Below are positions 1 to 23,551 of a DNA stretch of 25,749 nt, one piece after another. The DNA comes from a virus. The notes beneath the pieces are model-generated. The model was given only the letters and a program-made list of their open reading frames with translations, did no database searches and was not told the DNA's origin. Every line of letters begins with the position of its first letter. Positions within the stretch are counted from its first letter, which is position 1. The translations under genes and the position numbers were made by a program. The DNA lies in IMG/VR virus record IMGVR_UViG_3300023174_005589, positions 1 to 25,749 of that record; one strand, 5' to 3'.

Positions 1-2460
1 CAACAATGGTCCAGTCCAGAAGAACGCTGTAAGAAAAAGATATCAGAAGCCAGTGATGCGGATGTGGAACGTATGTCTCAGCAGTGGGTCGAGGGCTACG
101 GCAGCGAAGATATCGCATACAACGCTCTCATCAGTATTCGAGAAGAAATCGTTTTTGTATTGCCCAGGTATTGCGAAACTTACCGTGTGGCCTGCGACAT
201 GCGAAAACAAATGCAGGCCATGGGATCGGAAAAGTTTCATGCCTGGATCATCGTCACATTCACTCAGGACCTTGCTGCTGCTGGTTGGCCTCGACCACAC
301 TCAGACACATTCACTGACCTTACCAAGCGATTGGTATTCAAACCACTGCGCGGCGGTGTCAACCCTCTTGACACATTAACAGAACAAATCGAGATTGGCA
401 AGGACACTCCAGCACAACAATGGATCCATAAAATTTACGATGAATTTCACGAACATCCATTCAATCCCCGATACCGAGTAATGACCTGGGGGTCAGGTGA
501 CGATCAGCAACTGGCCATATTTGAACTGGCGCCGGTGTTTGGTAAACCCACCACAGTGGACATCAAATGGTTTCAAGCATATCCACAACGACAGGGCATT
601 GGCACCCGAGCCATGCAACGGTTACAACAACTGGCACAGGAAGATGGCATCACACTCACCATATATCCTTGGAACCGGGGCGAAGTCAGTCAGAGTAAAT
701 TGACCAAAATCTATCGTGGCATGGGATTCCGTCCCACAGTTCGGGGTGCCAAAGACATGTCATGGCAACCACAACAACAAAGTGTGGCGGAAAGCGGCGC
801 CGATTCCAATCTATCATATCAAGGTAATTGCACAGAAGATGATGTTATTGAACATATTTTTGGTGATGTTAATAACTTTGCTAACATGGTCGAAGAACAC
901 GGTGACGAATTTACTGTCGGTGATTTAGTTGTCAAGTATGACCCGGAAACAGATGTTCATAGTTTCTATTATAAGAAGCAAAGTCTGTCAGAAACATTTG
1001 ACCAACCCTATCCTTTGACCTGGGAACACAGTGAATACGGTGATGTGGATGCCCTGACCACTCTGGACGATGGGACCCATCTGACTGTGATGTTCAGTAA
1101 ACAAGACGATGATAGTTGGGGAGTGTCCTTTTACAGAAACGACAGTCAGCGCACCACAGGCCTGGGTGATGCTCACAGAGTGTTTGCCACAGTGTTGGCT
1201 GCCATTGCCGAGTTTATCAAAAAACAACAACCGCGGGCATTAACCTTTTCGGCTGTCAAAGTTGAAGAAGACAACGACAGTATACAAGACCAACTCAGTA
1301 GGATCAAACTCTATGACAGAATGGTTGAACGTTACGCACGATCTGCTGGTTATGGTGTCACCAGAGTGGACAAAACTCACTTGGTGGCTTATAAATTGAC
1401 CCGATTGAAACAAGAACTGTCTGAACAGCAACAACAAAGTGTGGCGGAAGGCGATGTGATACGTCACAAGTTCGCCATAAAACAGGCTCAGAAGAATCGC
1501 ACACCATATTATAAGAATCCTGATATAGAAATACCTCAGTATGACCCAGATCGGCGTGCTGTATATCATCCAACATTGGCCGCCGGGCAACCAGAAGATT
1601 TCGACCATTTTGAAGTAGAAGAACGCAGTCCCACAGTGGCCAGAATTATTGGCATCACACAGCAAGGACAACGCATTGTGGCCAGTACTACCTCATTGGA
1701 ACTAGCCAATGCACTAGTAGATGCTTACAATCGCGGCGGATTTACTGACAAAGATATTCAGCGTGTACCAGTGGGGCCCACCAACGAAGGTAGAAGAGTT
1801 ATGCCGGCAGCAGATGTCCAATCGGGTGCGGTCAAATTATACGGATATATCAAAAGAAATTTAACTGATTTAGCGAGCATGACAAAATTTCATGAGGATT
1901 ATAATGAATCTTTTGTTGACGAAAACTTGGATAATTTGTTTGGTCAGGGCATACGCGTGGTATTTGACTCAGGATCATCCATAGAGTTTGATGATGGATT
2001 TCTATATATTCCTCTTACTAAAATGTGGACCTATCGTGCATTGATTAGTCCTAATCAGTTCGTTGCTGAAGTTGTAAAAGAATTAAGCAAAATGTCAACT
2101 GTCACACAAACATCTGTTGCTGAAAACTTTAAAGATGGACCTCAGATGAAATTTTTACGAGCCGGTGAACTTACCGGCTCTTATACTGATCAACAGTTGC
2201 GAAATCTGGGATTCAAACAAAACAGCAGGGGTGCTTGGTACATACCTCAGGATCAATGGCAAAAATTGATCAGTAAGGGACAAATACGTGAAAACTTTGC
2301 AGATGGCAAGAAGCCAGGACGTAAGGGACTAGCCAAAAGAATGGGTGTTCCAACTACAGCCAGTGTAAGTAGACTACGCCAAATTGCTAAATCAAGCACA
2401 GGTGAACGTGCTCGTATGGCACACTGGATGGCCAATATGAAATCAGGTAAAAACAAATGA
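1..2460 (+). CDS. Probable virion-internal polyprotein with GNAT acetyltransferase domain (5' partial)
   Basis: The frame is open from base 1, so the true start may lie before the window; the first ATG is at 64 (798 residues, numbering used here). Residues about 150-230 resemble a GNAT N-acetyltransferase, with the acetyl-CoA loop QRQGIG at 175-180 and a following Y-x-x-M-G-F segment. The rest has no named fold that I recognise; 400-430 holds an RIKLYDRMVERYA segment. SVAE recurs at 240-243, 459-462 and 684-687, and IRE at 741-743, each followed by Ser, Gly or Asn. These divide the protein into pieces of roughly 220, 220, 56 and 55 residues. The last piece is strongly basic (KKPGRKGLAKR and SSTGERARMAHW) and could bind DNA. 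The SVAE sites resemble T4 gp21 prohead protease sites, so an internal virion polyprotein is inferred. The next gene overlaps by 4 bases (ATGA). Confidence 0.6.
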   Translation, partial: QQWSSPEERCKKKISEASDADVERMSQQWVEGYGSEDIAYNALISIREEIVFVLPRYCETYRVACDMRKQMQAMGSEKFHAWIIVTFTQDLAAAGWPRPHSDTFTDLTKRLVFKPLRGGVNPLDTLTEQIEIGKDTPAQQWIHKIYDEFHEHPFNPRYRVMTWGSGDDQQLAIFELAPVFGKPTTVDIKWFQAYPQRQGIGTRAMQRLQQLAQEDGITLTIYPWNRGEVSQSKLTKIYRGMGFRPTVRGAKDMSWQPQQQSVAESGADSNLSYQGNCTEDDVIEHIFGDVNNFANMVEEHGDEFTVGDLVVKYDPETDVHSFYYKKQSLSETFDQPYPLTWEHSEYGDVDALTTLDDGTHLTVMFSKQDDDSWGVSFYRNDSQRTTGLGDAHRVFATVLAAIAEFIKKQQPRALTFSAVKVEEDNDSIQDQLSRIKLYDRMVERYARSAGYGVTRVDKTHLVAYKLTRLKQELSEQQQQSVAEGDVIRHKFAIKQAQKNRTPYYKNPDIEIPQYDPDRRAVYHPTLAAGQPEDFDHFEVEERSPTVARIIGITQQGQRIVASTTSLELANALVDAYNRGGFTDKDIQRVPVGPTNEGRRVMPAADVQSGAVKLYGYIKRNLTDLASMTKFHEDYNESFVDENLDNLFGQGIRVVFDSGSSIEFDDGFLYIPLTKMWTYRALISPNQFVAEVVKELSKMSTVTQTSVAENFKDGPQMKFLRAGELTGSYTDQQLRNLGFKQNSRGAWYIPQDQWQKLISKGQIRENFADGKKPGRKGLAKRMGVPTTASVSRLRQIAKSSTGERARMAHWMANMKSGKNK
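772..792 (+). repeat. 21-base direct repeat, copy 1 (encodes QQQSVAE)
   Basis: Identical to 1429-1449 and in the same reading frame (offset 657 bases). It encodes a Gln run followed by SVAE, placed between two segments of the long first gene. It probably marks a domain linker or protease site. Confidence 0.85.
1429..1449 (+). repeat. 21-base direct repeat, copy 2 (encodes QQQSVAE)
   Basis: Second exact copy of 772-792. Identity at the DNA level in an otherwise unrelated part of the gene suggests recent duplication or recombination at a linker. Confidence 0.85.
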
Positions 2461-3239
2461 AAATACAAGATATACTAGAGGATCGTCCTCGCAAATCTGC
2501 AAGAACTCAAACAAGGCCTGAAGTTGACCTTGGCCCAGACTTACGACCTCCGCAGTACGAACCCTTAGAACCCTACAGAGAACCTGAACAAGGCCAATCA
2601 AGATCCGATACAACTGCACCCAGTCAAAGAACCGCTAGCCAAAGCCGTACCCGTCAGGCCACTTCAGGACTAGCCAGCAACGACATGGTCCGTATGCTGA
2701 GCCGCATGCGTGACATTGAAGTAGATGCGGATGATACTGGCTATCCAGAAGAACCTGCTATGGATGTCACACAGCGAGTAACCACAGACAATCTTCCCGC
2801 AGTGGCAGGTGCCAATCTGCAGGCCTCGGGTGTGCAAAATCCCGAATGGCACAAGGTTGCTAACCTGCCGGGAAATATGAAGCAGGCTATACGCACCTTA
2901 GGCCGCAGACTATTTGGTGCCATGACTGACACACCCACAGATCAGATACACATGATTGCTGATCTGGGTGGCCAAGGACCAAACACCCATCAAGAAATCA
3001 ATGCTGTGATGAATTGGATGCAGGAACATGGGCAGGATCTGGGTTCCGGGGACATTGATTTTGACACTGTGATACCAGGCTACCAGGCAGATATACATCA
3101 GTATACTGCCGGAGGTATTCGTTGGTTATTGGTCAGAGATCAGTTTGGTCGTTACATCTATAGTTGGCCAGAATCAGACAGTGTTGATGGGCTGGTAAAT
3201 CAGAGTCTAACACATCAGCCTAGGGCACTAACCAGATAA
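2457..3239 (+). CDS. Conserved phage virion-associated protein with disordered N-terminus
   Basis: 260 residues, function unknown. The first half (about 10-105) is rich in Pro, Gln, Arg and Ser and is probably disordered. The second half looks folded, with PEWHKVANLPG near 130, a helical segment ending RTLGRRLFGAMT, and FGRYIYSWPE near 235. This architecture resembles conserved hypothetical proteins of T4-like marine phages; that is from memory and not verified. The N-terminus MKIQDILE-D fits the short capsid-targeting peptide also seen in the next four genes, with Glu8 as the candidate cut. It starts at an ATGA overlap with the upstream stop, so translational coupling is likely, and no Shine-Dalgarno is needed. 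Confidence 0.65.
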   Translation: MKIQDILEDRPRKSARTQTRPEVDLGPDLRPPQYEPLEPYREPEQGQSRSDTTAPSQRTASQSRTRQATSGLASNDMVRMLSRMRDIEVDADDTGYPEEPAMDVTQRVTTDNLPAVAGANLQASGVQNPEWHKVANLPGNMKQAIRTLGRRLFGAMTDTPTDQIHMIADLGGQGPNTHQEINAVMNWMQEHGQDLGSGDIDFDTVIPGYQADIHQYTAGGIRWLLVRDQFGRYIYSWPESDSVDGLVNQSLTHQPRALTR

Positions 3240-3248: not shown

Positions 3249-4166
3249 ATGAACAAGACATCTTACATCATATTTTCCCAACTCTGCGAAAGCATCATAC
3301 AGGAAGCCAGTACTGCCAGCAACATACTGCCGGGCAATGCTGCGGCTAATGTGCTAATCAAAGTGCTGCACGGCCACTACAGCCTAGCACATGACCAAAA
3401 ATATACACAAACAGACAACATATCCTGGAACACTATCAATGATACTAGAACTGGTGCCTGGGCTATTATTAAATTTGCCGACGGGGTAGGTGCTATTAAA
3501 GCATCCAAAAACAAACAAGGGTATGCAGCAGTGGCAGTGCCTGATGAAAATTTACAAGTGTCAGAACAACAGTTCACCAAAGGCGGAGATGTCATAAACT
3601 ACTTCAAACAATTGGGACTGGGTAAAATACAACAACTGTACGTGGGGGTAGATCAAGGTCAATTGGGCCTAAAGAAAGGTGCAAGAGATGTTCGCCGGCA
3701 CCAAGAACAAAAACTTGGTACATCATCTCCGGAAAAGTTGCTGGCTAAATTCCGTCCCCTGTGGTTGCGTGCTATACAAGCAGCACAAGCAGATGTCAAA
3801 GGCATGGCTGTGACCATGGTACAGAACAATGCCTACAGAAAGGCCAACCAAAAACTTGAAAGATTGAACGAATTACAAGAAATTGCAGATGCCATCGAAT
3901 CCGGTGAAATAGATCAGACACCCAATCGTTACTCATCTAACGCCAGACAGGAAACTCTAAAAAAATATGTAACATCTGCTGTGTACCTTGCTGCAAGCCA
4001 TTTTTATCCAGAAGAAACAGGCAATATCACAAGAAGTTATGGCGGACTAAACGCATCTGGTTATCAAGGTCCCATGATGCTGCTAAGTGATATTGGTCAA
4101 GGTGATCAGAAAAAATTAGCCGCAGTTTTGGGATTCTTTAAAAGAATTCTTATATCAGGATACTAA
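3249..4166 (+). CDS. Putative internal virion protein, unknown function
   Basis: 305 residues with no family I recognise. The N-terminus ends in SIIQE-A (Glu19), which matches the L/I-x-E before Ala/Gly/Ser pattern of T4 gp21 prohead protease sites, so the first 19 residues may be a removable capsid-targeting peptide. Residues about 40-125 look like a compact alpha/beta domain (TGAWAIIKFADGVGAIKASK). About 150-235 is helical and charged, with Lys/Arg/Gln-rich stretches. No signal peptide or membrane segment is seen. It is preceded by a GATAAATA element rather than a ribosome binding site, and the next gene begins 3 bases after its stop. A role inside the capsid is inferred only from leader and context. 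Confidence 0.6.
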   Translation: MNKTSYIIFSQLCESIIQEASTASNILPGNAAANVLIKVLHGHYSLAHDQKYTQTDNISWNTINDTRTGAWAIIKFADGVGAIKASKNKQGYAAVAVPDENLQVSEQQFTKGGDVINYFKQLGLGKIQQLYVGVDQGQLGLKKGARDVRRHQEQKLGTSSPEKLLAKFRPLWLRAIQAAQADVKGMAVTMVQNNAYRKANQKLERLNELQEIADAIESGEIDQTPNRYSSNARQETLKKYVTSAVYLAASHFYPEETGNITRSYGGLNASGYQGPMMLLSDIGQGDQKKLAAVLGFFKRILISGY

Positions 4167-4169
4167 GCA

Positions 4170-5156
4170 ATGAACAGTCAAGAATTTTTAGCAGAAGCCA
4201 ACATAGCAGCCAAACTCAAAAGTGATGCCAAAATGGCCAAACGTATTGGCATTGCCATGCGTCATGACCGTACACTGCCCATGACTCTGGTGGCCAGATT
4301 GGGCACTAAACCAGACGACCAACAACTGTTACAGGCTTGGAGCAATCTGTTGGACCAAACACTCAGCAGCACTACCTATGGAGATTTGAGCAGAGAAGGC
4401 AAGTATGATGAGTGGCTGACTCGCCAGTATGTCAACGGCCAAGTTGACTTTGAAGACATCAATGGCGAGGGCGGTGATGCTTTGGGTGCATGGGCTGCAC
4501 TGAGCCTACGTGGCAAATTAGAACCCAAGGATCAGGATTTCAATAGATTCCCCGATATCGGTGCACTACAACGAGCCATGCGTAAACCTGTATATCTACG
4601 CGAACTGGAACGCATCAAAGACCAAGAGACCATTGAAAAACACAAGCGCGAGCAAAAGAACATAGTGGTCTATGAAGATGAAAACTACTGGTCTGCTGTG
4701 CTGTTAAACTACGGTGCCTGTTATACATTCAACAACGCTGCAGGCTATCGTGCTAACTTCTGCACAGGATCCAGTTCGGGATTAAGTTGGTTCCAACGTT
4801 ATGCTCCAGACGGCCTGCTGTTGGCTGTGATTAACAAAAATGACTCAGAAAATGCCGATGGCAAGTGGCAGATACATGCAGCCACCAATCAGTTTGTCAA
4901 TGCGGACCAGGAAGATCGGTGGAATCCCGAGAGAAATGCTAGGAAATTTGGCAAATTGTTTCCAGGTGTTATGAAGGCTGTGGTTCAGGGTCTTTCAGCC
5001 AGGGCTGAAGAAATCAATCAAGCCAGTGCTGAGATTGCCCGCGGAGGTTACGATGTCGCCAAAGAAATTTCAGAATTGCAGAGCAAGTTCCCAGGTGCCT
5101 TCACCAGTGCTAAATCAGACCCTGAATTAGAACCAAACCCCGAAACGCAACAATGA
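4170..5156 (+). CDS. Putative internal virion protein with Cys-Thr motif domain
   Basis: 328 residues, function not established. The leader MNSQEFLAE-A closely resembles the capsid-targeting peptides of T4 internal proteins, with candidate cleavage after Glu9. The middle (about 165-245) has YWSAVLLNYGACYTF, then NFCTGSSSGLSWFQRYAPDG and a hydrophobic strand LLLAVINKN. This layout (Trp/Cys-Thr, then F-x-x-Y-x-x-x-G-x-L) recalls a domain common in phage hypothetical proteins that carries a G-T-x-W-C-T motif; the match is loose. The C-terminus is acidic and Gln/Glu-rich. The next gene overlaps by 4 bases (ATGA). There is a weak AGGA about 12 bases before the start. Confidence 0.6.
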   Translation: MNSQEFLAEANIAAKLKSDAKMAKRIGIAMRHDRTLPMTLVARLGTKPDDQQLLQAWSNLLDQTLSSTTYGDLSREGKYDEWLTRQYVNGQVDFEDINGEGGDALGAWAALSLRGKLEPKDQDFNRFPDIGALQRAMRKPVYLRELERIKDQETIEKHKREQKNIVVYEDENYWSAVLLNYGACYTFNNAAGYRANFCTGSSSGLSWFQRYAPDGLLLAVINKNDSENADGKWQIHAATNQFVNADQEDRWNPERNARKFGKLFPGVMKAVVQGLSARAEEINQASAEIARGGYDVAKEISELQSKFPGAFTSAKSDPELEPNPETQQ

Positions 5157-5983
5157 GAGCCAGAGAATTTGTCAGAGAAAGTGGTCGACGTCTGGCCAGT
5201 CAGGGCAAGGAAGTTTCCCGAGTCTACCCAGAAGATTTTAAAAAGGCCAAAGCCAGTCTGGACCCCCTGCTAAAGCAAGCAGGCATCACCGCCGGATGGA
5301 CTGCTGGTGGAGCTGGTAGTTTCGATCCCGAACACCCCTACGGTGGCGGTGGTCGTGCCAGCAGTGGTGATATTGATATCATGATTGATCCTGATGATCT
5401 CAGAGCAGCCTTTCCTGTGGATCTGGAGCAGTATAATCAGGCAACCCAGGCCCTGGGCACCCGAGCATTTGCCAATGTCATGGCCAGTCCTGAAAGACAG
5501 GAAAAATTGGCACTGACCGCCAGCAAATGGGCCCTGGCACAATACATGACAAAAAATGGTTATCCCACCGACCCCGGCACGCTGACAGTGGAATATGGTG
5601 CTGATGGTAAGATCTTTAGTGTGGATTTGATATTACGTCCCAGGGAAGCCTGGGAATTACACGCTCATGACTTCAGTCAGGATCCCGAAATGCGCGGTGG
5701 TCAATTGTTCACTGACGTCTACCCCACACTGGTGCGACTGGCCAGCAAAACCACTCAGATTGATCCCAGAACTGGTGAAGAGAAGGGCAGTCTGCAATAC
5801 AGTCCTGATCGAGGGCTGGTGGACCGAGCCACTGGTCAAGTGGTGGCCATCAATAAAAATGACATCGCAAAAATTCTACTGGGCCCTGCGGCCACTGCCC
5901 GAGACATGAGCAGCATTTCTGGCATTCGTCGAGCACTCAGACAGGATCCCGAAAAGTTAGCCCAGGTTTTCCCCGCAGCATAA
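5153..5983 (+). CDS. Pol-beta-type nucleotidyltransferase, probable internal virion protein
   Basis: 276 residues. A nucleotidyltransferase core is visible: Gly55-Ser56 followed by a Gly-rich loop, then SGDIDIMID with Asp73 and Asp75, and a third acidic residue in FSVDLIL (Asp158). This is the G-S...D-x-D...D metal-binding set of the DNA polymerase beta superfamily, so transfer of a nucleotide to an unknown acceptor is likely. The leader MRAREFVRE-S (Glu9) fits the same capsid-targeting pattern as its neighbours, implying that the enzyme may be packaged and delivered with the DNA. It starts in an ATGA overlap with the upstream gene. The substrate cannot be told from sequence; an antitoxin-like or tRNA-directed activity is equally possible. 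Confidence 0.65.
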   Translation: MRAREFVRESGRRLASQGKEVSRVYPEDFKKAKASLDPLLKQAGITAGWTAGGAGSFDPEHPYGGGGRASSGDIDIMIDPDDLRAAFPVDLEQYNQATQALGTRAFANVMASPERQEKLALTASKWALAQYMTKNGYPTDPGTLTVEYGADGKIFSVDLILRPREAWELHAHDFSQDPEMRGGQLFTDVYPTLVRLASKTTQIDPRTGEEKGSLQYSPDRGLVDRATGQVVAINKNDIAKILLGPAATARDMSSISGIRRALRQDPEKLAQVFPAA

Positions 5984-6000: not shown

Positions 6001-7842
6001 ATGCTACTACAAGAACTATTTGCACCAAGAAAATCCATACTAAAAGAAGGCATTGATCACCCCGAAGATTTGATCATCGCCCAAGGCTCTGCCGGTGCCG
6101 AGCGCGTTGTTGACGCCATTGCTGGGCTATCAAAAGACACCAGCACAGTTTCCATCAAATGGGATGGTTTCCCTGCCGTGGTATTTGGCCGAGATGCACA
6201 AGGTCAGTTGGTGTTTGTAGACAAACACATGTACGACAAAGTTGCCAAAGGCCGCATGGAATTTATGACCATACAGGAATACGATCAGTCACGCGGTGCT
6301 GATCGTTCTGATCTATGGGAAAAAGAAAGTGTGTTGCGACCCCAGTTGGATAAAATTGTACCCAGAGCCCGGGATCAGTTTTGGATGGGCGACTTAATGT
6401 GGAGCGGCACACCTGCTACTCGAGATGGCGCATTTGTATTCAAACCCAACACTGTGGAATATCGAGTCAGCATCATTGGCGAATTGGGAGAAAATATTGC
6501 ACGCAGCGTGGGCGGCATTGCTGTGCATACGTTCATTCCTGGATTAGGGCAATCAGATCAGCCATTGACAGGACTCCGTGGCCTAGATGCCGACGGCGGT
6601 ATAACTTTCCTCACTGGCGAGATGCGTGACAAACCAAAAATACTAGTCAATCGCAATTTCTTAAAACAAACTCAACAGATCGTTCGACAACAAAAACCTG
6701 CGGTCGATAAATTCATTGCTGATCTAATAGAACAACGAGGCAAGAGCATACTCACAGCCATGGGCCCTTTTATCACCACCATGCTAGAAGACAATGATAT
6801 TGCCAACAACATTGTGCCAAGATTTTTAGAATTTTTAAAGTCAAGATTAAATCCTGCTGCTCAAACCAAGTTTTTGGGCAAGAACAATGATGGTTGGCTG
6901 TATCAAGCAGACGGCGGTGCACCGGGCTTGTTGGGCATCTGGATGATGTGGGCTGCAGTGACTGACCTGAAATTACATGTCAAAGAACAAATAGACAGTC
7001 AACAACGCGGCAGTGAGATTGTGGCCATTATTGATGGCGAAGAAGCACACGAAGGCTACGTGTTTGGCGGCGGCAAAGACAAACTCAAGTTAGTGGATCG
7101 TTTAGGATTCAGTCGTGCCAACTTTGCCAAGCACAGAGTGCCAGATGAAGAGATTGCTCAAAAGAAGGACATGCCTATGGCAGTGTTCTGTTTTGGTCGC
7201 ATGAATCCGCCCACCTTAGGTCACAGATTGGTCATGGCCAAAACAGTGGATCTGGGCAGAGACAATGCCTATATCTTTTTGAGCAACACACAAAACACTG
7301 ACACTGATCCTTTGGCACCTGCTGTCAAAGCGGCATTTATTAGAAAAATATATCCTGATCTGGGTCAACACATTGTCGACGAGCCGGTGGCTACACCCAT
7401 ACAAGCAGCCAACTGGCTCTACAGCAAAGGCTACAGAAACATGACATTCGTAGCCGGCAGTGACCGATTGGGACGCGGCACTGGCAGCATAGAACGACTA
7501 TTGAATAGCTGGAACAGTGGAACAGTTCGCACCGCAGATCATGCATTTGGTCCGGACGGCAGAGAGCACGTGGTACTGAATTTCGTCAGTAGCGGGTCAC
7601 GCGATCCCGATGCCACAGACATTAGTGGTATTAGCGGAACCTTGGCTCGCAAATTCGCTGTGGCGGGTGACGAACAGGCTTTTGAACGTGCAACTGGAGT
7701 TAAAAGTAATATCCGGGTCCAGGGCCAAACCTTATACCAAACCACTCGTCAAGGCATGGGGATCGCAGAACCAGTCGAAGAGCCACAATTACAAGAGACA
7801 CTGAATCGGTTCCGCAAAATGGGCCGGCAGTCACTCAAATAA
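6001..7842 (+). CDS. Fusion of ligase-like covalent nucleotidyltransferase and HIGH-type nucleotidylyltransferase
   Basis: 613 residues with two catalytic modules. The N-terminal module has the polynucleotide ligase/capping enzyme motifs in order: motif I KWDG with Lys53 as the expected AMP-accepting lysine, a motif III-like GDLMWSG (Asp131), motif IV-like HEGYVF (Glu351) and motif V-like KLKLVDR (Lys361, Lys363). The C-terminal module (about 390-560) has GRMNPPTLGH (399-408), a T/HxGH adenylylation signature, and a late ISGTLARKF motif like the IS-x-T-x-x-R of NMN/pantetheine-type adenylyltransferases. The leader MLLQELFAPRKSILKE-G resembles the T4 Alt capsid-targeting peptide, so it may be injected. 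Joining a ligase-like fold to a dinucleotide-forming fold could mean NAD or RNA-end chemistry; the substrate is unknown. No Shine-Dalgarno; an ACTAAATA element precedes the ATG. Confidence 0.7.
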   Translation: MLLQELFAPRKSILKEGIDHPEDLIIAQGSAGAERVVDAIAGLSKDTSTVSIKWDGFPAVVFGRDAQGQLVFVDKHMYDKVAKGRMEFMTIQEYDQSRGADRSDLWEKESVLRPQLDKIVPRARDQFWMGDLMWSGTPATRDGAFVFKPNTVEYRVSIIGELGENIARSVGGIAVHTFIPGLGQSDQPLTGLRGLDADGGITFLTGEMRDKPKILVNRNFLKQTQQIVRQQKPAVDKFIADLIEQRGKSILTAMGPFITTMLEDNDIANNIVPRFLEFLKSRLNPAAQTKFLGKNNDGWLYQADGGAPGLLGIWMMWAAVTDLKLHVKEQIDSQQRGSEIVAIIDGEEAHEGYVFGGGKDKLKLVDRLGFSRANFAKHRVPDEEIAQKKDMPMAVFCFGRMNPPTLGHRLVMAKTVDLGRDNAYIFLSNTQNTDTDPLAPAVKAAFIRKIYPDLGQHIVDEPVATPIQAANWLYSKGYRNMTFVAGSDRLGRGTGSIERLLNSWNSGTVRTADHAFGPDGREHVVLNFVSSGSRDPDATDISGISGTLARKFAVAGDEQAFERATGVKSNIRVQGQTLYQTTRQGMGIAEPVEEPQLQETLNRFRKMGRQSLK

Positions 7843-7854: not shown

Positions 7855-8970
7855 ATGAATAATATTCCCAATTGCAGTGCCATAGACACTGGTTTATTTT
7901 TGACCACTGATGGCGGATTAAAAACATGCTGTAGCGGTGCCTACGATTTAGGCAACCTAAGAGTCGAATCGTTATCAGATGTTTATGGTGGCGAACAATA
8001 TATTAAAATTCGAAATGCTCTGATTAACGACCAAAAACACAAGTACTGTTTAAGATGCGACCAACACGAAGAAACGAGCGGTAATAGCCAACGAGTAGTA
8101 TTCAACAAAGAGTTTCCCAGCACAGGTGCCCGCAGAATCAAACAAATTGATCTAAGATGGAGCAATCTTTGCAATTTAACCTGCAGATATTGCAATTCCA
8201 CTGACAGCAGCGAATGGGCTAAATTAGAGAGTATACCTATAGAATCTGTCAGCAGAGACTATGCCTCCGAGATTCTAGAAACTGTGGAAAAAAATAAAGA
8301 ATCCATAGAGTGCGTGTATTTGCTAGGCGGAGAACCCTTGCTACAAAAATACAATATCAATTTATTAGATATTATCAAACCATCAACCAAAATTGATATC
8401 CTCACAAACCTTAGCGTGGATCTTACCAATAATCGTGTTTATCAAAAACTCAAAAATTTTCCAAATGTCATTTGGAACCTCAGTTTTGATAATATTGAAG
8501 AAAGGTTTGAATATGTTAGACATGGAGCAAGTTGGGAATTATTGTTAAAAAATATCAACACCATCATCAACGACTTTGGTGTCTATCGTATAAATTTTCA
8601 TCCTGTTTACAGTATTTGGAGCGCATTCGCTCTCAAAGAATATCAAGACTTCGCTAAATCTTTGGGAATTCGAGTCAATTGGCAGCTGGCCAACGAGGTG
8701 CCAAATTTATTGCTGAAACATCGTGCGGGATACACTGTGTTCGATCACAAAATTGCCATACGACATGCAGCAATCGAACACATAAATCAAATTGATCAAA
8801 ATGATTTTTTTATCAACATCACATCTTCATTAAAAAATTCTTTAGAAATTTCCGGGCTCGATACAAGGTTTCTAAGATGGACTCACGAACTAGAAAAAAC
8901 AATCCCGCCAAAAAAGACCTTTCAGCAACTCTGGCCCGAAGTATGGGATCTGTTGCACCAAAAAAACTAA
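7855..8970 (+). CDS. Radical SAM protein, twitch/SPASM-like (paralogue 1)
   Basis: 371 residues. The radical SAM cluster motif is CNLTCRYC (Cys106, Cys110, Cys113), followed by a Gly-Gly-Glu SAM-binding segment LLGGEPLL. Before it lies a cysteine-rich region (Cys7, Cys25-Cys26, Cys65-x-x-Cys68) resembling an auxiliary-cluster domain placed N-terminally; phage proteins of this sort are often named twitch-domain radical SAM proteins. The C-terminus ends in a PPKKTFQQLWPEVWDLL segment shared with the gene at 9577, so the two are paralogues. It is too long and too rich in extra cysteines for QueE. The substrate is unknown; a peptide or a modified base/sugar are options. Base composition is more A/T-rich than the preceding block. 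Confidence 0.8.
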   Translation: MNNIPNCSAIDTGLFLTTDGGLKTCCSGAYDLGNLRVESLSDVYGGEQYIKIRNALINDQKHKYCLRCDQHEETSGNSQRVVFNKEFPSTGARRIKQIDLRWSNLCNLTCRYCNSTDSSEWAKLESIPIESVSRDYASEILETVEKNKESIECVYLLGGEPLLQKYNINLLDIIKPSTKIDILTNLSVDLTNNRVYQKLKNFPNVIWNLSFDNIEERFEYVRHGASWELLLKNINTIINDFGVYRINFHPVYSIWSAFALKEYQDFAKSLGIRVNWQLANEVPNLLLKHRAGYTVFDHKIAIRHAAIEHINQIDQNDFFINITSSLKNSLEISGLDTRFLRWTHELEKTIPPKKTFQQLWPEVWDLLHQKN

Positions 8971-9296: not shown

Positions 9297-9580
9297 TCGA
9301 CTGGAACAAAACTTTAAAATTTCTGCGGGATGATTGGAAAAGTGATCCGTTAAGGCTGACATTAGAAACCGTTAACTGGGCACTTAATCTTGCAATTGCT
9401 CTGATTTTTGCCATAACAATACCCAATGTACCATTGATTGTGGTATACCCAATATTCTTTGCTGCACTAAGTATTAGTATCTATTCCGCCGTTAGTCGAG
9501 GAAGTTTTGGTTTATTGATCACCAGTATCACTCTTTTTATAATCGATGCTGTTGGGTTTATTCGATTGCTTATGTCATGA
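9293..9580 (+). CDS. Small integral membrane protein, unknown function
   Basis: 95 residues with a GTG start overlapping the upstream stop by 4 bases. An amphipathic basic/acidic N-terminus (about 1-24) precedes two or three hydrophobic segments: roughly 25-45, 46-62 and 70-94 (ALNLAIALIFAITIPNVPLI, VVYPIFFAALSISIY, LLITSITLFIIDAVGFIRLL). It therefore should sit in the inner membrane. No family is recognised. Co-transcription and probable translational coupling with the DsbA-like gene and the following radical SAM gene (ATGA overlap) suggest a shared operon rather than a shared function. Confidence 0.7.
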   Translation: MIDWNKTLKFLRDDWKSDPLRLTLETVNWALNLAIALIFAITIPNVPLIVVYPIFFAALSISIYSAVSRGSFGLLITSITLFIIDAVGFIRLLMS

Positions 9581-10722
9581 TAAAAAAAAATTTTTGCAAA
9601 AGCCCATGGGCTTCAATTTTTGTCGAAACTGATGGCCGTGTAAAATCTTGCTGCCCTGGGGATTTTTATTGGGGCGACCTCAACCATAATAGTCTTGAAG
9701 AAATTTTGAATAGTGCTACAGTGTTAGAGATAAAACAGGGTATTATAAATGACGAGCCAGTGGAGTACTGCAAAAATTGTCGTCAAGATGAAAAATTCAC
9801 TGGAACAAGCCAAAGATTTTATTATGATTACATGGAACTGCCCGATGACATATTAAACTCAACAACTGCACTGGAACTTAAAAATATTGATATACGGTGG
9901 AATCCTTTGTGTAATATGGCATGTGTTTACTGTCGACCCGATAATAGTACACTGTGGCAACAATATATGAAGATTCCAATATCATCCCTAGATCGAACAT
10001 ATTATAAAGATTTGTTACAATTAGTATCGACGCACACTGAAACAATTGATTCTGTATTTTTATTGGGAGGAGAACCACTAATACAAAATCAAAACATTGA
10101 ATTATTAAAAACTTTGAATGATAATTGCGAAATTCAAGTTGTAACTAATTTGAAAGCGAATCTGGAAAAAAATTTAGTATTCAATGAATTAAAAAGAAAA
10201 CAAAATGTCGAATGGAATCTCAGTTTTGAGAATGTCGGCGAACGATTTGAATATGTTCGAAAGGGCGGCAACTGGCAGCAACAAATTAAAAACATCGAAA
10301 TACTCAAATCAATCCCTGCCCATAAAGTAACACTATTAGGAGTATATTGCGTACACAGTGCACTAAATCTTAGGGAACTTTATGAGTTTGCGCACAGCGC
10401 AGATATAGATATTCATTTACAACAATTATATAATCCCACTTGTCTTAATATACTAAACTTTAGTAAGGAAATTCGGCAAAAAGCCATTGATGAAATTGAT
10501 GCTGTACTGAATTTACCATATTTCAATAATTTTATGGAAAAAAATCAGATATTTCTTAACACAATGCGCCAAATGTTAATTGACAAATCAGACGAACAGC
10601 CAACAGTACATAAAGAATTTTGTAATTGGATTGATCAATTTGAATCAATGGCAAAGCCGCACAAAACTTTTGATGAGCTTTGGCCGGAATTAAATCAATT
10701 AATTCGGCAAAGTCTAATTTGA
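9577..10722 (+). CDS. Radical SAM protein, twitch/SPASM-like (paralogue 2)
   Basis: 381 residues. Cluster motif CNMACVYC (Cys112, Cys116, Cys119), and LLGGEPLI downstream. The N-terminus repeats the paralogue 1 layout: an early Cys, SCCPGDFYWGDL, then YCKNCRQDE. The C-terminal KPHKTFDELWPELNQLI segment also matches the gene at 7855. The coding sequence is noticeably A/T-richer than the polymerase next door, including a nine-A run just after the start (9581-9589) that could cause slippage. It starts in an ATGA overlap with the membrane protein gene. The two paralogues are different enough that they probably act on related but distinct sites, or as partners. Substrate unknown. Confidence 0.8.
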   Translation: MIKKNFCKSPWASIFVETDGRVKSCCPGDFYWGDLNHNSLEEILNSATVLEIKQGIINDEPVEYCKNCRQDEKFTGTSQRFYYDYMELPDDILNSTTALELKNIDIRWNPLCNMACVYCRPDNSTLWQQYMKIPISSLDRTYYKDLLQLVSTHTETIDSVFLLGGEPLIQNQNIELLKTLNDNCEIQVVTNLKANLEKNLVFNELKRKQNVEWNLSFENVGERFEYVRKGGNWQQQIKNIEILKSIPAHKVTLLGVYCVHSALNLRELYEFAHSADIDIHLQQLYNPTCLNILNFSKEIRQKAIDEIDAVLNLPYFNNFMEKNQIFLNTMRQMLIDKSDEQPTVHKEFCNWIDQFESMAKPHKTFDELWPELNQLIRQSLI

Positions 10723-10771
10723 ATATATACTGTACTAAGTGTCGCTCACTATACGAGCATGTAGAAAGGTT

Positions 10772-10789
10772 GACCAGCCACGAGTGGTC
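10772..10789 (+). promoter_or_regulatory. Hairpin before the polymerase gene, T4 gene 43 operator-like
   Basis: GACCA (10772-10776) pairs with TGGTC (10785-10789), leaving an 8-base loop GCCACGAG. The Shine-Dalgarno AAAGGA (10792-10797) begins 3 bases later. T4 gp43 represses its own translation by binding a hairpin with a 5-bp stem and 8-base loop at the same place. Loop sequence differs from T4 (AAUAACUC), so binding is inferred from geometry. Confidence 0.5.
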
Positions 10790-10801
10790 TGAAAGGAAAT
10801 A

Positions 10802-13462
10802 ATGAGTTATGTCGATGCCTTATTTGATCGCGCTAAAGATCGAATACATGTGGTTGAAAGAATTGATGGTGTTAGGGTCTATCAGGAGTACCCCGCCAAT
10901 TACGTATTTTATTACGATGATCCACGCGGTAAGCACCGGACCATTTATGATACCCCAGTCAGTAGATTCAGCACCCGGATAGGCAAAGAATTCCACAAGG
11001 AATTAAAGATTAACAGCGGCAAACGCATCTGGGAAAGTGACATTAATCCCGTATTCCGATGTCTCGAAGAGCACTACCTAGGACAAACTGCCCCAAAACT
11101 ACAAACAGCATTCTTCGATATTGAAGTTGACTTCGATCCTGTACGCGGGTTTTCCAAACCCGAAGACCCGTTTAATCCAGTAACAGCCATTACCATTTAT
11201 TTTGATTGGTTAGACAAGGTTGTGACGTTAGTCATTCCTCCCAAAAGTTTGAGTTGGGAAACTGCAGAAGAAATAGCCAAACGATACGATAATTGTTTCT
11301 TGTTTGATCGAGAAGAAGACCTGTTAGACATGTTTTTGAATTTGATCGATGATGCAGACATATTGAGTGGCTGGAACTCCGAGGGTTTCGATATTCCTTA
11401 CATGATCATGCGCACCAAACGTGTGCTCAGTAAAGACGATTGCAGGCGGTTCTGCTTGTGGGGGCAACAGCCTAAGGAACGCACATTTGAAAGATTTGGC
11501 GCCAGTCAACTGACTTTTGATCTGATTGGGCGTGTGCATTTGGATTATATGCAACTCTATCGCAAATACACCTATGAAGAGCGGCACAGTTATAGTCTAG
11601 ATGCCATCGGCGAATATGAGCTGGATGAACGCAAAACACAATACGAGGGCACACTGGATCAGTTGTACAATAGAGATTTTGATAGGTTTATCGAATACAA
11701 TCGCCAGGATACCATGCTGCTGGCCAAATTGGACAAGAAATTAAAGTTCCTAGACCTGGCCAATGAACTGGCACATGACAACACTGTACTGCTACAGACC
11801 ACCATGGGCGCAGTAGCAGTTACCGAACAGGCCATCATCAACGAAGCGCATCAGTTGGGTGTGGTTGTACCCAATCGAACTGGCAGAGACGAACACGGCG
11901 ACACGCAGGCAGCAGGTGCTTATGTAGCGTATCCCAAACAAGGCATGCACGAATATGTAGGCGCCATAGACATTAACTCACTGTATCCTAGTGCCATTCG
12001 AGCACTTAACATGGGTCCCGAGACCATTGTAGGTCAATTGCGTCCCGTAATGACAGACTATTACATCAGTCAAAAAATTGCCGGCGGCAGTAGTTTTGCT
12101 GATGCTTGGGAAGGATTGTTTGGTAGTCTGGAATATACTGCTGTTATGAATATGGAACCTGGCACTGAAATCACTATCGACTGGGAAAATGGCAGCAGTG
12201 ATATTCTCAGTGCCGCGGATGTCTGGCGGTTGATCTTTGACAGCAATCAACCCTGGATACTTAGTGCTAATGGCACTATCTTCAATAATGAACGCAAAGG
12301 CATTGTTCCTGGACTGCTGGAACGCTGGTACGCAGAACGTAAGGAAATGCAGGCCAAGAAGAAAGAAGCAACTGCACCCGAAGACATTGCATTCTGGGAC
12401 AAACGTCAGTTGGTTAAGAAAATTAATCTAAACTCATTATATGGCGCTATTTTGAATCCCGGATGTCGATTCTTCGACCATCGCATTGGTCAGAGTACTA
12501 CACTGACCGGCAGAGTGATTGCCAGACACATGGATGCATATATTAACGAATGCATCATGGGCAGTTATGATCATAGTGGAGAATCCATAATTTATGGAGA
12601 TACTGATAGTTGCTATTTTAGTGTCTGGCCAGCCATTAAGGATGATGTTGCTGCCGGTCGCATGGAGTGGAGCAAAGATCTAGCGGTGGCACTTTATGAT
12701 AACATTGCTGACCAAGTTAATGATAGTTTCCCTGCATTTTGTGAACGGGCATTTCACACTCCCCGTAAACAAGGAGAACTGATTAAGGGAGGCCGAGAAC
12801 TAGTAGCAATTAAAGGTTTGTTTATTAAAAAGAAACGATATGCTGTGCTAATTTATGACATGGAAGGCAAGAGGTTGGATACCCACGGCAAGCCGGGCAA
12901 AGTCAAAGCCATGGGCCTGGATCTGAAACGTTCAGATACCCCCAAGGTTGTGCAGGACTTCCTGAGTGATGTTCTGCTGGACGTGCTGACTGGCGCCACT
13001 AGAGACAGCATTATTGAAAAGGTCCGTGAATTTAAACTGGCATTCACTGAGAGGCCAGCATGGGAGAAGGGAACACCCAAACGTGTGAATAATCTAACCA
13101 AATACACCAAAGAAGAAGAACGACTGGGCAAGGCCAATATGCCGGGCCACGTTCGTGCAGCAATGAATTGGAATAATTTGCGCAGAATGCATGGTGATAA
13201 CTACAGTATGAGTATCGTGGATGGCATGAAGACCATTGTGTGTAAACTAAAAGACAACCCCTTAGGGTACACCAGTGTGGGATATCCCACAGATGAGACG
13301 CACATACCACAGTGGTTCAAAGATTTACCATTTGATGACGGTGAGATGGAGTCCACTATTGTGGACCAAAAAGTAGAAAACCTGTTGGGTGTGCTGGATT
13401 GGAAGATTTCCGAAAACACACAGATCACAACTACCTTTGACGATTTTTTTAGCTTCGAGTAA
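10802..13462 (+). CDS. 43: Family B DNA polymerase with 3'-5' exonuclease (T4 gp43-like)
   Basis: 886 residues, close to T4 gp43 (898). This is the replicative polymerase. Exonuclease motifs: Exo I FFDIEVDFD (Asp106, Glu108), Exo II GWNSEGFDIPYM, Exo III EYNRQDTMLL. Polymerase motifs: A DINSLYPSAIR (Asp390), B KKINLNSLYGAIL, C IYGDTDSCYF (Asp600, Asp602). The spacing follows T4 closely. The last residues, TTFDDFFSFE, look like the C-terminal clamp-binding peptide of T4/RB69 polymerases, and a clamp gene lies about 2 kb downstream. An 18-base hairpin and an AAAGGA ribosome binding site precede the ATG. No frameshift, intein or homing-endonuclease insertion is visible. Confidence 0.97.
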   Translation: MSYVDALFDRAKDRIHVVERIDGVRVYQEYPANYVFYYDDPRGKHRTIYDTPVSRFSTRIGKEFHKELKINSGKRIWESDINPVFRCLEEHYLGQTAPKLQTAFFDIEVDFDPVRGFSKPEDPFNPVTAITIYFDWLDKVVTLVIPPKSLSWETAEEIAKRYDNCFLFDREEDLLDMFLNLIDDADILSGWNSEGFDIPYMIMRTKRVLSKDDCRRFCLWGQQPKERTFERFGASQLTFDLIGRVHLDYMQLYRKYTYEERHSYSLDAIGEYELDERKTQYEGTLDQLYNRDFDRFIEYNRQDTMLLAKLDKKLKFLDLANELAHDNTVLLQTTMGAVAVTEQAIINEAHQLGVVVPNRTGRDEHGDTQAAGAYVAYPKQGMHEYVGAIDINSLYPSAIRALNMGPETIVGQLRPVMTDYYISQKIAGGSSFADAWEGLFGSLEYTAVMNMEPGTEITIDWENGSSDILSAADVWRLIFDSNQPWILSANGTIFNNERKGIVPGLLERWYAERKEMQAKKKEATAPEDIAFWDKRQLVKKINLNSLYGAILNPGCRFFDHRIGQSTTLTGRVIARHMDAYINECIMGSYDHSGESIIYGDTDSCYFSVWPAIKDDVAAGRMEWSKDLAVALYDNIADQVNDSFPAFCERAFHTPRKQGELIKGGRELVAIKGLFIKKKRYAVLIYDMEGKRLDTHGKPGKVKAMGLDLKRSDTPKVVQDFLSDVLLDVLTGATRDSIIEKVREFKLAFTERPAWEKGTPKRVNNLTKYTKEEERLGKANMPGHVRAAMNWNNLRRMHGDNYSMSIVDGMKTIVCKLKDNPLGYTSVGYPTDETHIPQWFKDLPFDDGEMESTIVDQKVENLLGVLDWKISENTQITTTFDDFFSFE

Positions 13463-13467
13463 CCACT

Positions 13468-15543
13468 ATGTCCGAACAACGAATTAATATAGAAAAATTT
13501 AGATCCATGGTCAGAAAACCATTGGACGAAAATGATATTGACGCCAGTCATCGATGGAGATTCCAACAGCTTGGTGGAACATTTGATAAAGATCTGGGAT
13601 TGCAAGGAAAATATTGCTATCACCCGTTTAATACAGTGACCATTGACAGCAAAGGGGAGTGCTATGTTTGCACTTGTCAAGCATGGCTTCCAATTAGCGT
13701 AGGAAACATTTTAGATTTCAATAGCCTCAGAGAGATTTCACATAGTCCTCGGGCAAGAGAAATACAAGCCAGTATCATCGATGGCACATACAAATATTGT
13801 GACAATAAAACTTGCCATCTAATTGCCAGTCGAGATTTAGCTAGTAATATTGGGCATAGAGTAGACAATATTAACTGGATTGTTTTTGCCATCGATGAAA
13901 GTTGTAATTTAAGCTGCCCGAGTTGCAGAACTGAGCTTGTGTTCCATAACAAAGGCGATGATTTTGAAAATCGAATGAAAATCAGTAATCATCTTGTTAA
14001 ATTAATACAAGAACACAATAATTTTTTAAAATTCACCCTTAGCGGCGACGGGGATCCGTTCGCTAGTCATGTTTACAGAAACCTACTAGAAAATTTACAG
14101 ATAGAAAATTACAGCCAAACCGAAATAGAAATTGCAACAAATGGCATACTTGTTAAATCCAGTTGGGAAAAAATGTCAGGTGTGCATAATAGTGTGATCC
14201 GATTTAAAATTAGTTTTGATGCCGGGTCACCGGAAGTTTATTCCATAACACGTCGAGGAGGAGATTGGAATAAACTTATCGAAAACAGCAAGTACATCAT
14301 TGATTGGAAAAAAAGAACAAACTCACAAATGCAAATAGTTGCAAATTTTGTTGTTCAAACCACAAATTATCGTGACATACCAAATTTTGTTAAAATTACA
14401 AAAGATCTCGGTTTTGATGAAATATCTTTTCAGAAGGTAGTTGACTGGGGAAAATGGGGGTTTGGAGAGACCAATACGTTTACCAACCATGCAGTGTGGA
14501 TGGCCAATCATCCCAATCATGATGAATTGGTGAAGATAATTAATCTCCCAATCATGGCCGATAGAAAAATTCAGCTGAATAACCTTGCGTCTTTAAGACG
14601 CAATCTAGCAAAACTATCAGAATTGGTCACTGTGAAGCACATGGCCGATTCAGAACTACACACCCATCAACTAAAACAAACCGTCGAACAGTACATGGCA
14701 TCAATACATAAAATCACCGAGTATCCCGGCCCGCACCAAATTCATGCAAAAATGATGCTGTCTGACAGTGCTCAATTGATTAGACAATTGGAATCTATAG
14801 AATCTTCAGCGAAACGACTAATCTCTGATGTCGATCATGAGATCGGCACTGTTACTTCTGAGTACCATCAACGCGGATATCGAATTAACGGATCTTTTGC
14901 CACCAATCGCACCAGTGTCGAGGGAGAAAGGACACTGAGAAATATATCAATAAGAAAAGATATCAAAGAAAGAATCATTGCCATAATACAAAAATATTCT
15001 GACTGGCGATATCCTGCGCTAGAAATTGGTCCCGGTGACGGCGTTTGGTCAGAATATCTAGTAGCAAACGAGCCACTATATCTGGTGGACATACATCAGG
15101 AATTTTTAGATTCTACTAAAAATGCCTTTAATTCGATTTTTCAAAATCGCATACGAGATTACAAGACTAAAGAAACTGATTTATCAATGTTACCGCAAAA
15201 TCAATTTGGATTTGTGTTTTCTTGGAATGTATTCAATTATTTGACTAGCGATTTAGTGGACCAATATCTTAAACAAATATACAATGTTCTCAGGCCTGGT
15301 GGCGTGTTGATGTTTAGTTATAACAATGCCGAACGAGTGTTAGCCGCTATTGCTGTAGAAACTGGATTTATGAGCTATCTTCCAAAGACCTTGTTGCTTC
15401 AACTGGCCGAAAAACATCAATTCGAAATACTCGCAACACCCGATCTCAACGACGACAATGTTTCGTGGGTCGAGCTACGTAAACCAGGAATGCTGACTAC
15501 CAGTAAAGCGCACACGGCGCTGGGAAAAATTATTCAAAAATAA
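13468..15543 (+). CDS. Radical SAM - class I methyltransferase fusion protein
   Basis: 691 residues. Residues about 45-115 form a Cys-rich N-terminal part (CYHPF, CYVCTCQAW, CDNKTCH). The radical SAM motif CNLSCPSC (Cys146, Cys150, Cys153) and a SGDGDPF segment follow. The middle (about 375-490) looks helical. From about 495 there is a Rossmann methyltransferase: motif I LEIGPGDGVW (Glu519 to Gly525), an acidic strand end LVDIH, then FSWNVFNYL and LRPGGVLMFSYNN. Two SAM-using domains in one chain suggest sequential modification of one substrate. The N-terminal layout is like the other two radical SAM genes, but it is not a close paralogue. It follows polymerase by 5 bases with no clear Shine-Dalgarno. 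Substrate unknown. Confidence 0.8.
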   Translation: MSEQRINIEKFRSMVRKPLDENDIDASHRWRFQQLGGTFDKDLGLQGKYCYHPFNTVTIDSKGECYVCTCQAWLPISVGNILDFNSLREISHSPRAREIQASIIDGTYKYCDNKTCHLIASRDLASNIGHRVDNINWIVFAIDESCNLSCPSCRTELVFHNKGDDFENRMKISNHLVKLIQEHNNFLKFTLSGDGDPFASHVYRNLLENLQIENYSQTEIEIATNGILVKSSWEKMSGVHNSVIRFKISFDAGSPEVYSITRRGGDWNKLIENSKYIIDWKKRTNSQMQIVANFVVQTTNYRDIPNFVKITKDLGFDEISFQKVVDWGKWGFGETNTFTNHAVWMANHPNHDELVKIINLPIMADRKIQLNNLASLRRNLAKLSELVTVKHMADSELHTHQLKQTVEQYMASIHKITEYPGPHQIHAKMMLSDSAQLIRQLESIESSAKRLISDVDHEIGTVTSEYHQRGYRINGSFATNRTSVEGERTLRNISIRKDIKERIIAIIQKYSDWRYPALEIGPGDGVWSEYLVANEPLYLVDIHQEFLDSTKNAFNSIFQNRIRDYKTKETDLSMLPQNQFGFVFSWNVFNYLTSDLVDQYLKQIYNVLRPGGVLMFSYNNAERVLAAIAVETGFMSYLPKTLLLQLAEKHQFEILATPDLNDDNVSWVELRKPGMLTTSKAHTALGKIIQK

Positions 15544-23521: not shown

Positions 23522-23530
23522 TTGACTGTC
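23499..23530. repeat. Imperfect inverted repeat overlapping the subtilase promoter
   Basis: Arms GACAGT-GT-AAATAGT (23499-23513) and ACTATTT-G-ACTGTC (23517-23530) around a 3-base GTT loop; 13 paired bases with one small bulge. It covers the spacer and -10 box. It could be an operator or, as RNA from upstream transcription, a hairpin ending the folE message; no U-run follows. Confidence 0.7.
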
Positions 23531-23551
23531 GTTAACAACTCTGGAGCAAAT

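Follow-up and report, generated by a model that had tools for sequence, protein, structure and literature searches.

A phage open reading frame that probably encodes a virion-internal polyprotein cut by a prohead protease and built from exchangeable cassettes

The IMG/VR virus record IMGVR_UViG_3300023174_005589 (positions 1 to 25,749) opens with a modular open reading frame (ORF) of 819 amino acids at positions 1 to 2460, which, like the ORFs that follow it up to position 7842, lies on the plus strand. The window, by which we mean the whole stretch of 25,749 bases that was analysed, is only a fragment; the rest of the phage genome lies outside the comparison. We consider it likely, with good confidence, that the ORF encodes a polyprotein located inside the virion of a T4-type phage, that this chain is cut by a gp21-type prohead protease, that the pieces are injected and that cassettes are exchanged at the joints. 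A prohead-protease polyprotein had been proposed in an earlier note made from the sequence alone. This reading is supported by segment boundaries at [VILM]-x-E, by leaders, by gp21-type proteases and by homologues in virions, from which we infer the cutting. One gene probably delivers several host-acting proteins. For the further proposal that the cassettes form a pool shared by a large group of environmental T4-type phages, and that a linker of about 21 bp doubles as DNA recombination seam and as the protease cut site K/E-Q-G-V-A-E↓G by which each cassette is released within the capsid (the arrow marks the predicted cut), we see the chances as evenly balanced.

As the frame is open to the left edge of the window, its 5' end is truncated and the true start lies upstream. 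Residues are numbered here along the open frame; the earlier note counted from a GTG at position 64, so that 21 has to be added to its numbers. The tetrapeptide SVAE, which it had placed at residues 240-243, 459-462 and 684-687, was indeed found at residues 261-264 (positions 781 to 792), 480-483 (1438 to 1449) and 705-708 (2113 to 2124), followed by S, G and N, respectively. QIRE↓N, given there as 740-743, corresponds to residues 761-764 (2281 to 2292). The first two SVAE sites do lie within an exact 21-base repeat in identical frame, CAACAACAAAGTGTGGCGGAA (QQQSVAE), at 772 to 792 and 1429 to 1449, which is a variant of a widespread linker, CAAGGTGTGGCGGAAGG. The third SVAE has the codons TCT GTT GCT GAA, unlike the repeat, so that the peptide recurs without the DNA repeat. 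Two or more copies of SVAE occurred in 0.01% of composition shuffles and any tetrapeptide three times in 1.1%; the pattern GTGTGGCRGAR is present twice in the window compared to 0.06 copies expected.

Two further candidate sites were absent from the earlier note, SLSE↓T at residues 328-331 (982 to 993) and KISE↓A at residues 13-16 (37 to 48), the latter conserved as KISE↓A in locus L097 and as KVSE↓A in L098. The regular spacing of about 220 residues that had been described did not hold, as there is no repeat unit or period and SLSE↓T breaks the pattern. Because of this extra cut the supposed 220-residue domains are not units: one of them splits into 67 and 152 residues, whereas the GNAT enzyme and the pieces of 56 and 55 residues are kept among the predicted products.

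The structure of the chain was modelled with AlphaFold2 from a 10-row alignment, which gave a mean predicted local distance difference test (pLDDT) of 47 and a predicted template modelling score of 0.29; alignments A1 and A2, in which short tails were misplaced, were excluded from the folding. The better-modelled parts are residues 135-258, about 287-323, 335-470 and 774-819. Residues about 135-258 (403 to 774) are predicted to adopt the GNAT fold, with pLDDT mostly between 60 and 86 and Foldseek matches to several GNAT structures at a probability of 0.96-1.00; by sequence this part scores below the Pfam cut-offs (Acetyltransf_1). The GNAT piece of the earlier note thus has its fold, but the fold spans only these residues of a 5'-truncated ORF. 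With regard to the question raised there, whether the sites are buried inside folded domains, the model gives no sign of burial for residues 261-264, 328-331 and 761-764, each of which separates better-modelled parts and has low confidence itself, and 480-483 and 705-708 are situated at or in a region that the model does not resolve.

Modular proteins of this kind form a large class in the contigs of T4-type phages, and the window ORF is a member of it. Near-identical full-length relatives are found in L097 (771 amino acids, starting with LRARDLLE) and L098 (816 amino acids, starting with MRAKDFINE). The 55-residue C-terminal module, NFADGKKPGRKGLAKR... (2293 to 2457), is basic with a net charge of +12 and is modelled as helices at pLDDT 76-86. 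It occurs in 50 IMG/VR loci, attached to many unrelated proteins and normally once per record; the cultured phages searched with it gave no match. It stands alone after a leader in L026 (MRAIEFIVE↓NFADGK) and in L043 (MKIRDILE↓NFADGK), and at the N-terminus of a protein in G005 after MRASEFITE↓NFADGK. Since there is usually one copy per record, we abandoned the idea that this tail serves as a tag on a large number of proteins in a single phage.

The 67-residue cassette SGADSNLSYQGNC...YYKKQSLSE (residues 265-331, positions 793 to 993) recurs in L105, L106, L107 and L108, where VAE sites flank both of its ends and the neighbours differ. It forms a separate gene of 62 amino acids in L109 and is not present in L097. 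The SVAE↓S site in front of it is a cassette boundary in L102 and L105-L108. The next segment, a DUF6934-like domain beginning TFDQPYPLTWE... with its C-terminal linker (residues 332-483, positions 994 to 1449), matches phrog_6387 and phrog_16075. With PF22028 (DUF6934) it scores 16.5 bits, below the cut-off of 27, which is passed by the homologous domains of L012 (30.0) and L099 (32.7). In Vibrio phage KVP40 this domain is a separate gene, KVP40.0058, the product of which begins MIIFEDINPLCE↓AFDRPAPYKW (INPLCE↓); the corresponding joints are SLSE↓TFDQPYPLTW in the window and SLQE↓AFDKPYPIKW in L012. Segments that stand as separate genes in homologues, which the earlier note had suggested looking for, thus exist in L109, L026, L043 and KVP40. 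The segment GDVIRHKF...TQTSVAE (residues 484-708, 225 amino acids, positions 1450 to 2124) has a relative in L111 only, where it also follows a candidate site, RLPE↓G. It contains an FVDE↓N match at residues 638-641, its model is uninformative and it gave no Pfam match. The 56-residue piece NFKDGPQ...GQIRE (residues 709-764, positions 2125 to 2292) carries a net charge of +4.

Every distinct upstream context of three unrelated modules was counted in the collected loci. Glu occupied P1 in all 49 contexts of the basic tail, all 24 of the WSxKYKxS module and all 8 of the FDxPYP module (81/81 in total), and P3 was hydrophobic (L, I, V, M or F) in 40/49, 23/24 and 8/8 (71/81); P2 and P4 were variable. 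In the eight FDxPYP contexts L/V-x-E directly precedes the domain. The background is 6.9% for Glu and 22% for LIVMF. For one module the P1 Glu could have been inherited along with the module itself; that three unrelated modules share the pattern, although P3 varies among V, I, L and M, matches the prediction of a protease site. Segments between VAE-type sites were also clustered into cassette families, with recurrence defined as at least 75% of the length in at least two loci. By this definition 57 families recur whole in at least two loci, 51 of them with differing neighbours. The payload domains in the relatives include GNAT, cytidine deaminase, nucleotidyltransferase, ParB-like nuclease, HicA and amidoligase domains, which suit early host takeover or counter-defence. 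The HicA toxin domain (PF07927) is located between Glu sites within such a polyprotein at 4858 to 6189 of L030. The polyprotein at 9557 to 12112 of G005 (IMGVR_UViG_3300037336_000025) has tandem duplicated domains (SFGSGYGRVFTLYVNTG... and SFGSGFNGPFTAVVNTG...), with QGVAE↓G before each.

The site type found at the joints also ends the leaders of these proteins. The polyprotein ORFs start, for example, with MRAQEFIIE, MRATEFITE or MKLSEIIIE. Of the 136 polyprotein ORFs, 84 have [LIVMF]xE ending at residues 7-13; the corresponding counts are 170 among 834 other ORFs and 53 among 402 internal-Met controls. In its arrangement of residues this leader layout is that of the T4 capsid-targeting sequence, which in IPIII comprises the first ten residues. 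The cleavage by T4 gp21 follows L/I-x-E, and the T4 internal proteins enter via a 10-residue leader (PMC9026906). The segment-border sites described here match the gp21 cleavage pattern, with V often at P3. Peptidase_S77, the gp21 family, was found in all four related records above 170 kb. The major capsid proteins of two phages above 170 kb carry YLSE↓N and YLAE↓S, at positions which we take to be those where T4 gp23 is processed.

At many joints it is not only the peptide that is conserved, as the linker DNA CAAGGTGTGGCGGAAGG is conserved far beyond codon preference. When 20 records were searched for QGVAEG with a fully degenerate pattern, 15 matches came up, each of them with GGT GTG GCR GAA. 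Scanning IMG/VR for CARGGTGTGGCRGARGG yielded at least 120 stretches; among the matches listed, 105 of 106 are in the QGVAEG frame, in ORFs whose median length is 548 codons. In loci that had been found without the DNA pattern, 29 of 57 [GS]VAE sites show the exact core [GA]GTGTGGCGGAA. As GCG makes up 9% of the Ala codons in those loci and GTG is used at 25%, less than 1% would be expected for this core. The conservation has sharp edges and falls to background within about three bases on either side. One case of cassette gain or loss could be followed directly. To one side of the 67-residue cassette the window shares 98% identity with L097, and to the other 97%; the joint reads CAACAACAAAGT/CTGTCAGAA in L097, and CAACAACAAAGT/GTGGCGGAA...AAGCAAAGT/CTGTCAGAA in the window. 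These sequences show that the gain or loss passed through CAAAGT in the linker, so that the SVAE↓S site at 261-264 is the seam. The near-identity of the joints in DNA across phages suggests that cassettes are swapped there; the exchange would proceed by short homology, and a dedicated recombinase is also possible.

Related chains of basic modules are encoded between gp16 and gp17 in the cultured cyanophages S-PRM1, S-CAM9, S-SRM01, DSL-LC02 and S-RIM8. In the virion proteome of S-CREM2, a cultured cyanophage too, peptides have been reported from mass spectrometry for gp160 (7), gp137 (4), gp154 (3) and gp156 (6), and a prohead protease is also listed (PMC10665884, Table 3). The gp160 sequence contains DLRKWF-like, KCWKGY and DUF5872 modules and gp137 contains DUF6321; gp154 is a cytidylyltransferase with the leader MKNFSSFLTE↓A, and gp156 has a nucleotidyltransferase-like domain as in L005, L104 and L107. 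The module families are virion-associated in this relative, which bears on their location and not on cutting. One of the modules in these chains, the basic and Cys-containing DUF5872, has also been annotated in an algal giant virus (PMC12085832).

Several observations weigh against the proposed cutting and packaging. The structure model is of low quality, its mean pLDDT being 47. The motif [LIVM]xE[ASGN] taken alone is only marginally enriched in the ORF (6 compared to 2.4 expected, P 0.03), and for this reason the case is built on the relatives. V is common at P3, as opposed to L/I in T4, V being also found in the leaders of these phages. The ends of BLAST alignments fall within 4 residues of the sites in 38% compared to 21%, a moderately positive result, and the test is only moderately informative because the alignments extend into the linker itself. 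The 25.7-kb window holds no S77 protease, no capsid genes and no N-terminus of the ORF. A neighbouring fusion gene at 6001 to 7842 has no LxE site at its domain joint; it was rejected as a second cut fusion, and not every fusion in the region is therefore cut. The QGVAEG form did not turn up in any cultured phage, and other QGVAEG cassettes matched one uncultured megaphage only. The S-CREM2 proteins may be contaminants of the caesium chloride fraction, carry-over being allowed for by the authors in the case of the regulatory ones, and no virion peptide ending at the Glu of an internal site was seen.

We considered four alternatives to a chain cut by the prohead protease. The protein could be an uncleaved multidomain polyvalent protein that is injected as one chain, the VAE linkers being hinges left by recombination. 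Polyvalent phage proteins with GNAT, peptidase and other domains have been described and are thought to be packaged (PMC5512222), and the conservation of the linker DNA would be explicable by recombination alone. This does not account for the joints that differ in sequence and codons (QIRE, VNE, KLLE, LSE, TLFE) and yet retain the P1 Glu and a hydrophobic P3, nor for the identical site type at the end of capsid-targeting-type leaders and the gp21-type protease in each large record, and we regard it as unlikely. It is far less probable that the repeat is primarily a DNA element, such as a mobile repeat or the target of a recombinase or nuclease, for which the QGVAEG reading would be secondary. 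Conservation over 17-21 bp with sharp edges, rare codons and the occurrence on many contigs would fit such an element, but the matches listed are with one exception in a single frame on the coding strand of long ORFs, and many joints keep the peptide pattern without the linker DNA.

Slightly less credible still is a real polyprotein that is cut by another protease, either a host enzyme or the subtilase encoded in the window at 23522 to 25579. The contig carries a subtilase gene and no S77 gene; nevertheless, [VIL]-x-E agrees with the leaders and with the family of prohead proteases, and the signal-peptide-like start of the subtilase, by which it would be exported, counts against it as the cutting enzyme. 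That SVAE is functionless and arose by chance or simple internal duplication we regard as practically negligible: the marginal enrichment of the general motif would be in line with it, whereas the relatives, the cassette exchange and the in-frame conservation of the DNA contradict it.

A polyprotein cut in the capsid resembles several known systems in part. As is proposed for the present class, the T4 proteins IPI, IPII, IPIII and Alt have a hydrophobic-x-Glu leader, comprise small basic proteins and host-acting enzymes, depend on a gp21-type protease and are packaged with the DNA. They differ in having one gene and one leader per internal protein (Alt is trimmed at both ends), whereas here the payloads are chained and the cassettes exchanged. 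Judged by sequence, the window protein would work like the T4 internal proteins, its membership among them being not fully proved. The T4 core proteins gp22, gp67 and gp68 also receive several gp21 cuts per chain, but they are scaffold that is mostly degraded and removed, in contrast to the recurring folded enzyme-like domains among the pieces described here. Polyvalent proteins combine several effector-type domains per chain, are frequently rearranged and are predicted to be delivered from the capsid (Iyer et al. 2017, PMC5512222); the same authors liken them to polyproteins. In these, embedded peptidase domains bring about release, whereas the present chains have prohead-protease-type sites and joints conserved as DNA; none of the Pfam peptidase domains searched for was found in the window ORF. 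In giant phages, too, many ejected head proteins are substrates of a Glu-specific prohead protease (phiKZ gp175, SPN3US gp245), but their processing at S-x-E or A-x-E is mostly propeptide removal from single proteins and involves no cassette chain. A likeness in the modules themselves is shown by the cyanophage proteins of the gp16-gp17 interval (S-PRM1, S-CAM9, S-SRM01, gp114 of S-RIM8) and by S-CREM2 gp137 and gp160, which have the same DUF5872, DUF6321, KCWKGY and WSxKYKxS modules, basic and Cys-rich, strung together with L/V/I-x-E in between. In these the order is more fixed and enzyme domains are few, no QGVAEG DNA linker was seen, and they are annotated as hypothetical only.

The five ORFs directly downstream of the polyprotein gene have leader-like starts, two of them looser, and the ORFs beyond position 7855 have none. 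The first (2457 to 3239, leader MKIQDILE↓D) overlaps the stop codon of the polyprotein ORF and is followed by ORFs at 3249 to 4166 (possible leader MNKTSYIIFSQLCESIIQE↓A), 4170 to 5156 (MNSQEFLAE↓A) and 5153 to 5983 (MRAREFVRE↓S). The fifth is the fusion of a phrog_455 domain to a cytidylyltransferase at 6001 to 7842 (possible leader MLLQELFAPRKSILKE↓G); the two parts are separate adjacent genes in S-CAM9 and P-HM2 and one gene in S-PM2. Three radical-SAM-type proteins are encoded at 7855 to 8970, 9577 to 10722 and 13468 to 15543. Two of them are SPASM/radical SAM proteins according to Pfam, and the one of 691 amino acids matches a methyltransferase and is rich in Cys in its N-terminal half, which resembles radical SAM. 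Among cultured phages, the DNA polymerase at 10802 to 13462 is closest to those of two jumbo phages, Phosso of Sinorhizobium (51%) and Atu_ph07 of Agrobacterium (46%). The subtilase gene (PF00082), situated at the contig end, has the look of a cellular gene, and the C-terminal region of its product resembles an autotransporter barrel.

We propose that the polyprotein would be synthesised late in infection and carried into the prohead core by its N-terminal leader (MRAKDFINE or LRARDLLE in the relatives), where a gp21-type protease would cut after Glu at [V/I/L/M]-x-E↓. The products would be the GNAT enzyme, the 67-residue cassette, the DUF6934-like domain, the pieces of 225 and 56 residues and the basic peptide of 55 residues. 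By analogy with T4, DNA would then be packaged around the freed pieces, which would enter the host together with it. Such polyproteins would be assembled from a shared cassette pool, the QGVAE/QSVAE joint being the approximately 21 conserved bases where cassettes are exchanged, and this recombination may be the cause of the conservation in DNA.

Leader-targeted packaging and release by a prohead protease are known from T4, where each protein has its own gene. Polyproteins that carry many payloads and are cut in the capsid, and a joint acting at the DNA and the protein level, are undescribed in the literature searched, which took in few subscription papers; searches combining DUF5872/DUF6321, GVAEG, or polyprotein and prohead protease gave no account of such a system there. 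There is a strong chance that this cassette-and-linker organisation is new. If the proposal is correct, tailed phages would possess a modular and rapidly reshuffled system of injected effectors, in which the exchange of a single in-frame cassette could add, drop or swap an effector. The proposal would account for hundreds of ORFs annotated as hypothetical in cyanophages and environmental T4-type phages. It would furthermore provide a sequence rule for the prediction of injected proteins and suggest how, after a design found in nature, T4-type capsids might be loaded with several proteins.

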